From an uncultured bacterium (GTDB lineage: Bacteria > Cyanobacteriota > Vampirovibrionia > Gastranaerophilales > Gastranaerophilaceae), in contig CASDWH010000039.1 in the NCBI GenBank assembly GCA_949284715.1, forward strand, positions 1 to 56,387: DNA of 56,387 bases, written 5' to 3'. Positions 1 to 5,237 of this stretch are shown one piece after another. Both the position numbers and the translations under genes were made by a program. Positions within the stretch are counted from its first letter, which is position 1. Every line of letters starts with the position of its first letter. The notes beneath the pieces were generated by a model. That model was not told where the DNA came from, did no database searches, and saw only the letters and a program-made list of their open reading frames with translations.

Positions 1-2754
1 TAACTCATCCGCTAATGCTCCCTCTATTGTACCGTTACTTATATTTATCTCTCCCGTCGTACTTATTTCCGCATTCAATCCATATGATTTCAACATCGAC
101 AGTAAATCTTCCACCGTCGCGTTCGCTCCCAATGTCTTATTACTAGCTATTACATTACCCGTCATGTCCTTCACCGTAAAGCTCTTACCTCCTACTTCAT
201 ATCCGTAGTCCGTAAAATGTGACCCGCTTGTGGCTATTGAACCGGTTTCAAATTTGACATTTGTAGAGTGGATTTCTGTGCCGTTTACAGTTGTTGATGT
301 GAAGCCAAACGCGGTCATCAGGCTGCCGCCGATATCTAAGCCGCTTACATCTAATTTACCGTTTTCAAGGCGGAAGGAGCCGCCGTTTGATTCTATATAA
401 TTTTTGAGGGTTCCTAACGTACTGCTGCCGTTAAGATTATAGTTTTTGCCGTTAATAGTAAATGAATAACTGCCATTGAAGCCCATGCTGGCAAGGGTGC
501 TATCTACTGTCGCTTCCGTAACAGAACTGCCTTTCAAAACGCCGCTGGTTTGTTCTACAACCATTACTTCTTCGCCCGCTTCAACCCTCTTAATACCGAG
601 CTTGTCTGCCAGTGTACCGCCGATTACACCGTCGCCTTCAAGTTTAATAACGCCGTCTTCTATCGTCATTGTTATTCCGTATCCTGCAAGGGTGTTCGCT
701 ATGTCCCCTAAAGAAGTAGTTCCGCTTAATGTTTGTGTTTTTTGCGCTTCGCCGTACTGGTTGTATATGATTAAGGTTTCGCTTGAATATCCTAAATCTG
801 AAAGTATAGTAGATTCTGTTCCAACAAAATCAACAGTATAAGTTAATGTTCCGGTATAAAGGTTCGTACCGTCAACTGTATCCTCGTTTAATTTCAAAGC
901 TCCAACTAGCGAGCCTGTTAATTTATCAACACCCGATATTTCCAAAAATCCGGTGTCGCTTATCTCCATTGTTCCGCCGGCAGCCTCAATTGCAGCTCTT
1001 ATATCATCAAGAGTGCTTGCTCCGTTAAAATTCTTGCTTGAAGTAGAGCCGTTTGCCTGTATCTGCAAGCTGTATGAGCCATTCAGTCCAAGAGATTCTA
1101 ATGTAGAAGTGCCGCTTGCTATCTCTGTTTTGGTTCCTTGAAGTTTATCAGACTCAGCTACAGTTCCTGAAATCTCAGAGCCGGATTCTACATAACTTAA
1201 GCCCAGAGCCGTAGCAAGGCTGCCGGATATCAATCCGTCGCCGTCTATTGATATTACTCCCTCATCCGAAATAGTCCCTTCTATTCCGTACTTTTTAAGT
1301 GAGTTGAACCATTGTTCTATAGTTGTATCTTCTGTTACCTGTAAATTTCCCTGTACAACTTCCGCGCGTTTATTCAACACGCTGTAATTCAGATTAGAAC
1401 CTTTTATTCCTAATTCACCAAAGGTTGTACTGGTTGAGGCTGTTAGTGTTGATGTATACTTTAATTCAGAACTCTTCATATCAGTTCCGTTTACTTTTTC
1501 TGCATCAAGTTTTAAGCCGTCTATTACACCGCCTGATAAATACAATTTATCAATATCGCCGCTGATAGAAATTACGCCCTCTGAATCCAAATATATGTCC
1601 GCATCCATTCCGTTTGCTGCTGCGTATGATTCAATTTGATTGAATACATCGCCTACAGTTGATGCTGAGGACATGTTAATCGTTTTTGATGTACTGCCGT
1701 TTGATAATATTAAATTATAATCTCTAAATGAAGAATTGATTTCTCCAAGTTTTGTCGATTCTTTTATATACTCTGTACGCGTATATGACAATCCGTCTGT
1801 TGTTGATGTTACGGAGTCAACCTTTTCCACCAGCCCGAGTGCTGTTATAATATTTGACCCGCCGTCTATTTCTTTTATATCAATGCCGGTTATCGTTATA
1901 TAACCCTCAGCATCCATTTCTGCGTGTGCGCCGGTTGAGCCGTAGTTGTCATTGATATAATCAAGGAATGTTTGTACTGTCGCATCTGCGCCAAAATTCA
2001 AATTAACCTGCTGCTGGTTAATATTTACTGCACCATTCTTAACACCTATATCACTCAATAAAGTTGTAGGTTTAATGGTTACGTAACCCTCTGTCATTAA
2101 TCTGTCAGATTCCAGCCCCGTAACAGTCTTAAACTCTAATCCCAGTGAATCAAAAAGCTTTGTCGTGCCGTCATCGGCTTCATAAATGTTCGTCGCTATA
2201 GTAAACTGCCCCTTCGTTTCATTATAATCCGCAGTTATACCTATATTTGCAAGTTTGTCCAGCAAGGTTTCTATTGTATCGCTGTTGTTTAATTCAATCT
2301 CTCTGTTATTTAATGATACATACCCCGCTTCAACACCAAGTACGCTAAGTTTTGTTGTCGCAGCCGCTGTATTGGTTACAGTTACAGTTGTCCTTATAGC
2401 CGTATTAACCTTAGTATTGCTTGCTACCTGTGTTACCCCGACCTCATAAGTATCACGCGCTGCCTCCGGTGTAGCGGTTGCAGTTACTTTCCCCGGATTC
2501 GATGAATTAGCCAGGTTTTGTACAAACAGGTCTAGTGAATCACTCCCGTATTTCGCATCAGTTAATCTCTCTAATGCACTCCTGAACGAGGTAAAGTAAT
2601 TCTTTATCCCGCTTACCACATCCCTTAAGGCTACAGCCTCACTCTTTTCCTCTTCCAATTGTTCGACTTTCGCATTTCTGAGCGCGGTAAGCGCACTGAC
2701 CCACGAGCCAGTGTCCAAACCTGTTACTAATCCACTAAACGATATTACGCTCAA
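1..2754 (-). CDS. FliD-like (flagellar hook-associated protein 2) repeat protein, 3' end outside window
   Basis: The minus frame is open from a TTG at 2754-2752 to the window edge (918 codons). An AGGAGA ribosome site lies at 2763-2768. The N-terminus (FSGLVTGLDTGSWVSALTAL, then a heptad-like stretch and a motif resembling YEVGVTQVAS) matches the FliD N-terminal D0/D1 pattern. About eight tandem units of roughly 100 residues follow, starting near 2340, 2040, 1735, 1412, 1095, 800, 480 and 210. Each carries a 'TTLxDLxxxL...G...I...G.I.I.G...GxLAxxLGL' pattern like Flagellin_IN repeats. The FliD C-terminal domain would lie beyond the edge. Family knowledge: FliD caps the filament and is usually 450-600 residues, so this one is unusually long. 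It could instead be a secreted adhesin with a FliD-type N-terminus; no other flagellar gene is in the window. Confidence 0.8.
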   Translation of the reverse strand, partial: MSVISFSGLVTGLDTGSWVSALTALRNAKVEQLEEEKSEAVALRDVVSGIKNYFTSFRSALERLTDAKYGSDSLDLFVQNLANSSNPGKVTATATPEAARDTYEVGVTQVASNTKVNTAIRTTVTVTNTAAATTKLSVLGVEAGYVSLNNREIELNNSDTIETLLDKLANIGITADYNETKGQFTIATNIYEADDGTTKLFDSLGLEFKTVTGLESDRLMTEGYVTIKPTTLLSDIGVKNGAVNINQQQVNLNFGADATVQTFLDYINDNYGSTGAHAEMDAEGYITITGIDIKEIDGGSNIITALGLVEKVDSVTSTTDGLSYTRTEYIKESTKLGEINSSFRDYNLILSNGSTSKTINMSSASTVGDVFNQIESYAAANGMDADIYLDSEGVISISGDIDKLYLSGGVIDGLKLDAEKVNGTDMKSSELKYTSTLTASTSTTFGELGIKGSNLNYSVLNKRAEVVQGNLQVTEDTTIEQWFNSLKKYGIEGTISDEGVISIDGDGLISGSLATALGLSYVESGSEISGTVAESDKLQGTKTEIASGTSTLESLGLNGSYSLQIQANGSTSSKNFNGASTLDDIRAAIEAAGGTMEISDTGFLEISGVDKLTGSLVGALKLNEDTVDGTNLYTGTLTYTVDFVGTESTILSDLGYSSETLIIYNQYGEAQKTQTLSGTTSLGDIANTLAGYGITMTIEDGVIKLEGDGVIGGTLADKLGIKRVEAGEEVMVVEQTSGVLKGSSVTEATVDSTLASMGFNGSYSFTINGKNYNLNGSSTLGTLKNYIESNGGSFRLENGKLDVSGLDIGGSLMTAFGFTSTTVNGTEIHSTNVKFETGSIATSGSHFTDYGYEVGGKSFTVKDMTGNVIASNKTLGANATVEDLLSMLKSYGLNAEISTTGEINISNGTIEGALADEL

Positions 2755-3184
2755 CTTAAAAGTCTCCTGTCGTTTAATTGAATATTGCTAAGTACGTTCA
2801 AGCGTCCCTGAACTCTATAGTACTTAGTTTTCCTATACTACTTTATTCCACTTTACTTATAATTTATAACATACTTTTAACAATTCTTAATAATTGTTGT
2901 ATGGATTATTTGACGCATTATTGCGATGATAGTCTTTAACATTATGATTGGTGTTGATATGTCATACTTATATAATTTGTATAGTGGATATATATAAATA
3001 TACTATTTTTTTTCGGGTTTGGCAAGTGTAAATAATTGCTCCCCACCCTTGCCCCGCCCCAACTCGGGGCGGGAAAACAATAACAACACTCCTCCCTGGA
3101 TTATGTAAACGGGGGGGGGTACCACAACTAAATCTCTTGTTGGGCTGAAAGCCCAGCCTACTACTAAAATCTACTCCTCGTAAT
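2755..3184. other. 430-bp intergenic region with two hairpins and a G9 run
   Basis: No gene is seen. A GC-rich perfect inverted repeat (CCCGCCCC at 3053-3060, GGGGCGGG at 3066-3073) stands out in AT-rich DNA. A second hairpin, TGGGCT-gaa-AGCCCA at 3141-3155, lies just past the amidase stop and could terminate that transcript, although it lacks a clear T run. A nine-G homopolymer occupies 3111-3119. An AT-rich inverted repeat AACAATT/AATTGTT lies at 2879-2898. The region must hold the leader of the FliD-like gene; no convincing sigma-70 or sigma-28 promoter was identified. Confidence 0.5.
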
Positions 3185-5173
3185 CTAATTGCGTGCTGCG
3201 TTATAAAAATAACTCGTAAATTTTGACAAAAAGTCGCGGCATCTTGTACTTAAAGACCGGCTATCCTGCGTCTGCTCTTCTGTGTCACCCGATGCAAATA
3301 TATTTACAGGCTTTTCTTCCTCCATTATTTCCTGTTTTATCACGCGCGGCGGCCGCTTTACCCTCTTCTTTTTACCGCGCGGTCTATACCATTTTGTATC
3401 CTCTTTATCTATTACATAAATGGCTTCCTGCTGGTATTTATCCCGCACAGATGTGTCAAGGAAAGGTTTCTCTTCCTCTGTATTAATTTCTAATGTTTTT
3501 TCTCTATTAAACAGTTTCTTCATCCAATTTATTTTTTGCTTTTCTGGTATTGAATCTAAATCCTTTTCCTCCTCAGGTTCCTTTAATTCCGGAGGCGTAT
3601 CGTTCTCAGGTGGTACTGCTTCAAAATTCTCAGGAGCCTCCTGTGCTTTTACTTTTATTTTCTTTTTCTTCTTTTCAGCAGTTTGTTGTTTGTCATCATT
3701 TGTTTTTTTATAAAATTCATACCACTTTTTATCACTGTCTTTTTTTGCTTTACCCTCAGGTGCGTTCGTCAATTGTCCGGATTCTTCCGATTTCTGTTTA
3801 CCGGCTACAAATTTTACTATTCCCGCCGTTATCCCATCGGCCGCTTTTTGGGCAAATTCAGCAGACTTATATATCTCCGAGTCAAATGGATTAACCATAC
3901 TGCACAAGTCTACACTTACTCCGAGATATTCTGTCGGCTGCAGCACTATATCCCCTGAACGCTTTACGCCTGCATCTGCTGTAGATAATGCAGAGATAAG
4001 TGTGCCTTTTATATTTTCAGCAAGACCCTTTGCGCTGTTATTATAGTAGTAAACACCGGTGCCATTATTCGTTAACGGGTTTTCACCCTGCGGAACTGTA
4101 CTCATATGAAGGCTTACAAAAATATTTGCATTGTTCGCCTTGGCTATTTTTGCCCTGTCCTCCTCTGAAATAGCAAAATCTGTATTTCTGGTTAAATAGA
4201 CAGATGCACCCTTTTCCTCTAAGGCTTTTTTAAGCCGCAGCGCTACCTGTAAGTTTATATCCTTCTCATAATCACGAAATATCCCGAGCGCTCCATTATC
4301 CATACCGCCGTGTCCTGCATCAATAACTATCGTCAGCCCGCCAAGCGGTTGGCTTAAATCCCGTTTTACACCCTTCATTATCAGTGTAAAATCAGAATTG
4401 ATAAACTCTGTACTGTATTTTACAAGCTCATGTTTTGCAACTTTTAGTATCAGTGTTTCATCGTTCATGCCAGAAATATTGAAAATATTTATAATTAATT
4501 CATTAGGATTATCTATTACTTCATAAGGAACATTATGTGAAAATGCAACTCGGTACATTGATAAATCCGGAATATTTTTATCATCTATATTATAAAAATC
4601 CGCAAGCTTTGCTTTCGCCGGATAACCGGTATTATCATACACCATCCGGACATCTTTTGTTTTTACCCACGCATACCGTGTCGGGGTTAAATATACTTTA
4701 AAAAAGTCACCCTGCCTTCCCTCAACTATTAAGTATGTATTTTCTGACAGATGTGAAAGGATTTCCATATTATTTTTATCAGGAGTGTTATAAAGCGGCA
4801 CCCTGTCACTGATTGTTAAAAACATAGTCTTGCCAAGCGGTGTGAATGCTGTCTGTTTAATCTCGTTTTGTTTCGGTTTCTGTTTGATTATATAGTACTG
4901 TTTTATACTACAACTAGCCCCCTTGCAGACTTTTAAAAACACCTGGCTTCGGCCGGCCGGAACAGGAACATTAACCGCAAAAGCTCCGTTCTTTGCAGCC
5001 TTTACTTCCTCATTCTGGCAATATAAGGTTTCTCCCTTGTCCAGAACCCCCATAAAATATACATTGTCATGCACCGTTCTATTATACTTACCCTGCGGAT
5101 ATACAAATTCCGCCGAATATACCACCCCGCAGCTAAATGCGGTAATTCCCAATAAAGCCAATATCTTCTTCAT
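3185..5173 (-). CDS. Secreted N-acetylmuramoyl-L-alanine amidase (AmiC/Amidase_3) with SH3-like and acidic/basic tail regions
   Basis: The start is placed at 5173, giving 662 residues, because MKKILALLGITAFSCGVVYSA is a clean signal peptide. An in-frame ATG at 5227 would add 18 residues in front of it. An SH3-like segment spans about residues 115-180 and the zinc amidase domain about 278-455. Zinc ligands are His288 (in DAGHGG), Glu303 and His356 (in SLHMS). At the usual catalytic glutamate (VExGF in the family) this protein reads SVDLCSM, that is Asp422. The last 190 residues are Lys/Glu-rich and probably disordered. Expected role: cleaving the amide bond between MurNAc and the stem peptide in cell separation or envelope remodelling. 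It begins about 65 bp after uvrC on the same strand. Confidence 0.85.
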   Translation of the reverse strand: MKKILALLGITAFSCGVVYSAEFVYPQGKYNRTVHDNVYFMGVLDKGETLYCQNEEVKAAKNGAFAVNVPVPAGRSQVFLKVCKGASCSIKQYYIIKQKPKQNEIKQTAFTPLGKTMFLTISDRVPLYNTPDKNNMEILSHLSENTYLIVEGRQGDFFKVYLTPTRYAWVKTKDVRMVYDNTGYPAKAKLADFYNIDDKNIPDLSMYRVAFSHNVPYEVIDNPNELIINIFNISGMNDETLILKVAKHELVKYSTEFINSDFTLIMKGVKRDLSQPLGGLTIVIDAGHGGMDNGALGIFRDYEKDINLQVALRLKKALEEKGASVYLTRNTDFAISEEDRAKIAKANNANIFVSLHMSTVPQGENPLTNNGTGVYYYNNSAKGLAENIKGTLISALSTADAGVKRSGDIVLQPTEYLGVSVDLCSMVNPFDSEIYKSAEFAQKAADGITAGIVKFVAGKQKSEESGQLTNAPEGKAKKDSDKKWYEFYKKTNDDKQQTAEKKKKKIKVKAQEAPENFEAVPPENDTPPELKEPEEEKDLDSIPEKQKINWMKKLFNREKTLEINTEEEKPFLDTSVRDKYQQEAIYVIDKEDTKWYRPRGKKKRVKRPPRVIKQEIMEEEKPVNIFASGDTEEQTQDSRSLSTRCRDFLSKFTSYFYNAARN

Positions 5174-5237
5174 AACACAGATTATATTATAAACTATATA
5201 TCCCGGCAAGAAATTGTAAAGTTTCATTTCCGACTTC

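Follow-up and report, generated by a model that had tools for sequence, protein, structure and literature searches.

A giant FliD-like gene with a tandemly expanded head, and related giant FliD paralogs of gut Gastranaerophilales

The window, that is, the whole stretch of 56,387 nucleotides analysed here, is contig C39 (positions 1-56387) of G000, the genome of an uncultured member of the Gastranaerophilales (2.0 Mb, 42 contigs, 99.97% complete). Its left end holds the 5' part of a giant fliD-like gene, giant B, which is cut by the contig end within its eighth head unit. Upstream of the start codon lie a Shine-Dalgarno-like sequence, a conserved RNA hairpin and a short sequence box, followed by a gene for an N-acetylmuramoyl-L-alanine amidase (Table 1). 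An ordinary FliD is a compact cap protein a few hundred residues long, and the canonical FliD of G000 (contig C5) has 577 residues and two head units. An earlier note on this DNA had read giant B as a FliD with at least eight Flagellin_IN-like units in place of about two, which may form either an enlarged filament cap or an adhesin derived from FliD.

Table 1. Features at the left end of the window
Feature	Position	Strand	Basis
Giant fliD-like gene B, N-terminal 918 codons	1..2754	-	Open reading frame; TTG start at 2754, open at contig end (base 1)
FliD_N (D0/D1 half), residues 11-113	2416..2724	-	Pfam match
Head unit 1 (residues 129-227)	2074..2370	-	Giant-derived HMM; canonical-unit HMM E 6.9e-9
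Head unit 2 (residues 228-330)	1765..2073	-	Giant-derived HMM; canonical-unit HMM E 2.3e-6
Head unit 3 (residues 331-438)	1441..1764	-	Giant-derived HMM; canonical-unit HMM E 3.5e-4
Head unit 4 (residues 439-546)	1117..1440	-	Giant-derived HMM only; no canonical-unit HMM match
Head unit 5 (residues 547-644)	823..1116	-	Giant-derived HMM; canonical-unit HMM E 5.2e-4; structure modelled
Head unit 6 (residues 645-748)	511..822	-	Giant-derived HMM; canonical-unit HMM E 5.1e-3; structure modelled
Head unit 7 (residues 749-840)	235..510	-	Giant-derived HMM only; no canonical-unit HMM match
Head unit 8 (residues 841-918), cut by contig end	1..234	-	Giant-derived HMM; canonical-unit HMM E 7.5e-4
Shine-Dalgarno-like AGGAG before the TTG start	2764..2768	-	Read from leader sequence
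Conserved leader RNA hairpin	2788..2827	-	Alignment and covariation of 11 leaders; ends 33 nucleotides before start codon
GTGGAATA box upstream of hairpin	2844..2851	-	GTGGAA invariant in 11/11 aligned giant leaders
N-acetylmuramoyl-L-alanine amidase gene (neighbour)	3185..5227	-	Amidase_3 E 1.9e-38
141 nucleotides identical to right end of contig C37	1..141	-	Contig-end comparison

A chain of FliD-head-type domains between FliD ends

The N-terminus of the window protein matched the Pfam model FliD_N at residues 11-113 (E 3.8e-13, 50.3-56 bits), at twice the cut-off (50.3 versus 24.8 bits), which bears out its reading as FliD. Behind it, a hidden Markov model (HMM) derived from giants placed the starts of eight head units at residues 129, 228, 331, 439, 547, 645, 749 and 841, with unit lengths of 92-108 residues and the last one cut at 78. 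Since this HMM was seeded with units taken from the window protein, it is circular for that protein. A second HMM was built only from canonical FliDs (28 unit stretches from 13 proteins, two of the stretches being weak extra matches). At a per-domain E <= 0.01, a threshold set for one sequence, it matched six stretches of the window protein, namely units 1, 2, 3, 5, 6 and 8, left units 4 and 7 unmatched, and found nothing in 100 residue shuffles of the protein. It also matched 17 stretches in the second giant of G000 (giant A, 2,402 residues, contig C19), 23 in a giant of 6,589 residues and 48 in one of 11,051 residues. In the other direction, the giant-derived HMM found two units in each of the 13 canonical FliDs (E <= 2.4e-6), with one further match near E 0.08 in two of them, as well as 19 units in the C19 giant and 50 in the 11,051-residue relative. 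The unit count of the earlier note is thereby confirmed, with eight units of about 100 residues in the window protein against two in canonical FliDs. An origin by chance or frameshift was rejected: no unit match arose in the 100 shuffles, and stop-free long frames recur across genomes.

The family label that the note had given to these units fared less evenly. Pfam Flagellin_IN (PF07196) did not match the window protein at E <= 1, and it matched relatives of another genus strongly. An unrelated adhesin family is not a better match, as neither Glug, Peptidase_M26_N nor any adhesin family in Pfam matched the window protein. The NCBIfam FliD equivalog models gave no match to the window protein and 78.8 bits to the C19 giant, against a cut-off of 387; because the canonical FliD of G000 falls below its cut-off too (147.2 versus 469 bits), these cut-offs are non-discriminating here.

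AlphaFold2 modelled the 918 residues as eight similar domains, each repeating a strand-strand-helix pattern (8 aligned rows, mean predicted local distance difference test (pLDDT) 67, predicted template-modelling score (pTM) 0.27), with an unreliable N-terminus (residues 1-128, pLDDT under 50). A model of units 5 and 6 together (192 residues, 92 aligned rows) reached a mean pLDDT of 81 and a pTM of 0.48. When this two-unit model was aligned to known structures with VIA, rows 1-18 were all FlgK, FliD or flagellin filaments (Z 6.7-5.1), led by FlgK (Z 6.7) and Escherichia coli FliD (Z 6.5) and including several flagellin outer domains. A phage tail protein was rejected as an identity for the units, since phage rows appeared only from rank 19 down (Z 5.0 and below). 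A sequence search against solved structures returned nothing for query A3 and seven weak rows for query A2 (best E 0.014): OTU1, hemolysin II twice, a hydrolase, two ribosomal proteins and polyubiquitin. Pfam matches to OTU1_UBXL and UBX were likewise set aside, as no stretch passes alone; we read them as reflecting the beta-grasp likeness published for FliD (PMC1949818).

The C-terminal FliD domain falls outside the window, beyond the contig end, and is known from relatives. In genome G002 the corresponding giant B adjoins, in the same orientation (L080), a gene whose N-terminus resembles by eye that of the amidase in the window. This giant B, with a frame of 3,183 residues, about 3,167 from the equivalent start, carries FliD_C (L058/L080, E 4.3e-35). 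The 918 codons of the window gene align over their length to a relative at 76% identity. The second giant of G000 is complete and carries both FliD_N and FliD_C (FliD_C E 1.2e-34). Both Pfam domains were found, at opposite ends of the protein, in three complete giants of 2,402, about 3,180 and 6,589 residues, the last of these from genome G045. These results show that the giants consist of the D0/D1 halves of FliD bracketing an inserted chain of FliD-head-type domains, the FliD_C part being seen in the relatives, and that a head of D2/D3-type domains sits behind FliD_N in the window protein. A FliD with an enlarged head, as the earlier note had it, is thus borne out by the same-position relative and by giant A.

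A family of giant paralogs in flagellated relatives

Giants were searched for among relatives only. The N-terminal profile matched 101 of 383 genomes of the family, and at least 41 of the 383 have frames of 1,000 residues or more (six in genus g1, five in g40, 30 in g25), a lower bound because frames may be cut by contig ends. A FliD of canonical size is present as well in 37 of these 41 genomes; in G005 the canonical FliD was seen as two pieces on two contigs. A frame of 1,076 residues (G014:C26, FliD_C 20.0 bits) has no units and was removed. A fourth genus, g33 (G038, G068 and G141), holds divergent giants of up to 11,051 residues with strong Flagellin_IN matches. In that genus we also observed divergently transcribed giant pairs with a different N-terminus and strong Flagellin_IN matches, one in G038 (C11:31958-53385, L067/L068) and a second in G068 (C5:16001-54999, L064-L066). 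The window gene is one member of this group of giant FliD paralogs, which spans several genera of gut Gastranaerophilales.

Read by eye, the genes around giant A are of the same kinds in G000, G002, G003 and G004, and giant B adjoins the amidase gene in G000, G002 and G006 (divergently in the last, L081) and lies behind an NADH-dehydrogenase-like cluster in G003 and G004. At the giant A locus of G006, a gene of 329 residues fuses the two D1 halves in frame with no head units (L087:10001-10990). Other members carry additional material: GLUG motifs and Peptidase_M26_N-like stretches stand beside FliD-type units in the largest giants, those of G045 and G068, and long Thr-rich tracts separate the units in giant B of G002 and G003. 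These segments may be adhesive.

The genome of the window has other flagellar genes, for which the earlier note had advised a search. Contig C36 encodes a FliI-type ATPase, FliH, FliG and FliF, contig C20 encodes FlhA, FliH and a second FliF-like gene (L079:9482-15063), and there are six Flagellin_N matches besides the canonical FliD. Among 116 relatives, FliD_C was found in 62 genomes (61 over the cut-off), flagellin in 64 and CsrA in 52; 61 of the 62 FliD_C genomes and all 52 CsrA genomes lie among the 64 with flagellin. Flagella genes are known in some Gastranaerophilales according to PMC4040986 and PMC5877343. As a separate observation, YscJ_FliF matches occur in 107 of the 116 relatives, 43 of which have no flagellin match (the FlhA search was limited to G000); some relatives may retain part of a flagellum-like export apparatus and lack the filament.

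A tree of D0-D1 cores was built from 26 rows, 13 canonical and 13 giant, mini or partial. Of 28 canonical loci, 15 were left out because the signature regular expression found no complete frame in them, and beyond g1 the sampling comprised a single g40 giant and, from g25, the C-terminus of one giant. The giants formed one group apart from canonical FliD (support 98/97; 98% of 200 bootstrap trees), with the tree tool flagging long branches that meet, and the deeper order unsure. For giant A, the ratio of nonsynonymous to synonymous substitution rates (dN/dS) was about 0.05 between G000 and G002 (N-core 0.02, units 0.05, C-core 0.04) and about 0.10 between G000 and G003; canonical FliD gave 0.03, all these values being rough because dS is near saturation. 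Giant A thus appears to be under purifying selection.

G000 also holds several partial copies. Contigs C39 and C37 share exactly 141 nucleotides at their ends, and C11 and C22 share exactly 141 at their starts. The right end of C37 (C37:23920-24141, L074) is a headless copy of a giant that begins within a unit; immediately before it stand a thioredoxin-like gene and a terminator-like hairpin (names by eye). The assembly probably broke at a collapsed repeat shared with this headless copy, which is possibly a silent cassette. FliD_C lies near the starts of C11 and C22, where two tails of 535 residues differ at 91 of 1,608 nucleotides. The differences are mostly synonymous (proportion of synonymous differences, pS, 0.21; of nonsynonymous differences, pN, 0.009), so that both tails seem to have evolved under constraint. 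Either is a candidate for the missing end of the window gene. On contig C2, a frame of 755 residues (L017:2793-5060) joins about 95 foreign residues to six FliD-type units and an 8-residue end; it is closest to giant B of G002 (71% over 1.9 kb) and resembles an in-frame insertion into some other small gene.

A leader hairpin of the giant genes

The hairpin upstream of giant B recurs before the giants of the same genus; before giant A on C19 it ends 24 nucleotides from the start codon. In the alignment of 11 leaders all 165 of 165 cells are paired, and six of the 15 pairs, all within the outer helix, show changes on both sides. On four measures none of 500 shuffles scored as high as the real alignment, and on a fifth ('further pair types') 24 of 500 did so. 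The inner helix is conserved rather than proven, because it varies on one side only. Searched with strict filters, 116 genomes gave 11 strong matches to the hairpin model (57.8-65.2 bits; next best 25.5 bits), all of which precede giants: giant A in six genomes, including the 329-residue copy of G006, and giant B in five. The hairpin thus precedes every giant-gene start found in this genus (11/11). The two matches in G000 are those of its two giants, with no match at its canonical fliD, and G001, a member of the genus in which no giant was found, gave no strong match. Rfam returned only two matches between positions 2600 and 3300 of the window, both below threshold.

The motif ARGGACGCUUG is invariant in the 11 leaders and is preceded by C in 10 of them; a GGA also lies near the start codon. 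Its ARGGACG part resembles the CsrA consensus RUACARGGAUGU, obtained by systematic evolution of ligands by exponential enrichment and given in PMC7652899, and a csrA gene is present in G000. On this likeness, the hairpin with its motif would control translation, perhaps via CsrA. The arrangement is reminiscent of CsrA-controlled flagellar leaders such as that of Bacillus subtilis hag, as described in PMC7652899: both have a GGA-containing leader near the ribosome site of a flagellar-type gene, and CsrA occurs only in flagellin-bearing genomes among the 116 relatives. Unlike those leaders, the one found here is specific to giant fliD genes, and its predicted fold has no clear ANGGAN loop. The box AAAGTGGCATA, similar to GTGGAATA, precedes the canonical fliD of G000; the two are possibly a shared promoter element. 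A sigma-28-type promoter before the giants was rejected, as nothing exceeded shuffles.

Cap, adhesin or relic

We consider it rather likely that a giant FliD is exported and docked as a cap by its D0-D1 part, that its expanded head supplies adhesive arms, and that its translation is controlled by the leader. The giant would be exported by the flagellar type III apparatus, and its D0-D1 core would dock at the filament tip, either by itself or in mixture with canonical FliD. The expanded head would then provide several long arms able to hold on to mucus, host cells or other microbes, and the flagellum would double as an adhesive feeler, with the hairpin setting translation, perhaps through CsrA. 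The window gene itself may serve as a cap, an adhesin or both, the two roles proposed in the earlier note. In Pseudomonas FliD, as reported in PMC8533109, the head can be swapped, even for the larger Helicobacter head, and D1 is essential; therefore a giant head and a headless core are both workable in principle. Binding to mucin or mucus has been associated with FliD, although a review (PMC4009794) notes that a direct FliD-mucin interaction was not shown for Pseudomonas. A bolder form of the proposal seems rather unlikely to us, namely that the cap is a multi-armed adhesive organ with several giants per tip, each carrying tens of head domains of about 100 residues and beta-solenoid-like or Thr-rich segments, with a dedicated leader-RNA switch and partial copies feeding recombination of the heads.

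Several observations weigh against an adhesive cap under leader control. Foldseek found nothing at E <= 0.001 for the two-unit model, with DegP on top (E 0.03) and FliD third. The VIA Z scores (5-7) fall in what the tool describes as a middling range, so that the case from VIA rests on the consistency of its rows. The g33 giants match FliD_C weakly, and FliD_N did not match in the pieces scanned. G423, G395 and G352 have a giant and no FliD_C frame of canonical size, so that not every giant is accompanied by a normal cap, unless these assemblies have gaps. In the stretches read by eye we recognised no flagellar operon next to the giants, most neighbours being unscanned. Synonymous sites between the window gene and its G002 relative are saturated, so dN/dS was not computable for this gene. 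As for the leader, the hairpin model gave no strong match at giants outside the genus of the window in the 116 genomes under strict filters; the first G of GGA is base-paired in the predicted fold, which sets it apart from the ANGGAN loop reported for RsmE (PMC7652899); and CsrA was not found in 12 of the 64 genomes with flagellin, including G004.

A cap without adhesion, conditionally expressed and with a bulky head that affects how filaments grow, how long they become or how cells swim in viscous gut contents, would agree with the stronger constraint on the D0-D1 core than on the units (dN/dS, giant A), and with the 329-residue copy of G006, which lost the head and kept core and hairpin as if the core alone were useful. 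The replaceable head of Pseudomonas FliD (PMC8533109) points the same way. However, the GLUG, M26_N-like and Thr-rich stretches of several giants fit surface binding better, as do large expansions in several genera, which suit a purely mechanical role less well, and we regard this explanation as unlikely. The giants might instead be adhesins that leave through the flagellar apparatus and act outside the cap, released, at the hook-filament junction or along the filament. That one unit has FlgK as its best VIA row and several rows are flagellin outer domains would suit this explanation, as would the lack of a recognised flagellar operon. But full-length relatives of three species match both FliD_N and FliD_C, which model the cap protein, and a released adhesin would need no cap core; such a role is quite improbable. 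Finally, giant B and the partial copies of G000 might be relics or silent cassettes, decaying or recombining, the window copy perhaps being non-functional. The headless C37 copy joined behind a thioredoxin-like gene, the chimeric frame on C2 and the 141-nucleotide contig ends held in common are what such decay would leave. Against it stand the 918 open codons of the window, aligned over their length to a relative at 76% identity, and the C11 and C22 tails with their pattern of constraint, which make this very improbable.

The favoured explanation, an adhesive giant cap, has partial parallels among known proteins. Like the FliD/HAP2 cap (FliD_N PF02465, FliD_C PF07195), the giants have D0-D1 halves at both ends in full-length relatives, a head of D2/D3-type units inserted between these halves, and flagellated genomes. 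They differ in having eight or more units (19 in C19, 50 in the 11,051-residue relative) instead of two, in being extra paralogs mostly beside a canonical fliD, in the Thr-rich or GLUG inserts of some members and, in the genus of the window, in the leader hairpin. The giant flagellins of Oceanospirillales (PMC6248924) are likewise axial proteins enlarged via tandem duplication of an outer domain; as described there, they are filament subunits of more than 1,000 residues with two tandem DE regions, whereas here the cap protein is enlarged and with far more units. FliD of Campylobacter jejuni has an added D4 domain, tentatively tied to adherence by its authors (PMC7316729), but according to that source it is a single insert inside the D1 bundle and not a long tandem head array. 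Among the matches listed in literature searches on FliD, giant flagellar proteins and Gastranaerophilales, no giant FliD appeared in titles or abstract starts.

Duplicate caps that have grown to 2,400-11,000 residues, with the normal cap mostly kept, mark the FliD head as an open slot for domain expansion. They raise the question of the limit of the flagellar export channel for a single huge substrate, and they offer a natural size series of 329, 2,400, 3,000, 6,600 and 11,000 residues. The leader hairpin provides a concrete regulatory hypothesis in an uncultured group whose flagellar control is little known, and the giant FliDs suggest that flagellar tips in gut bacteria can specialise for attachment.

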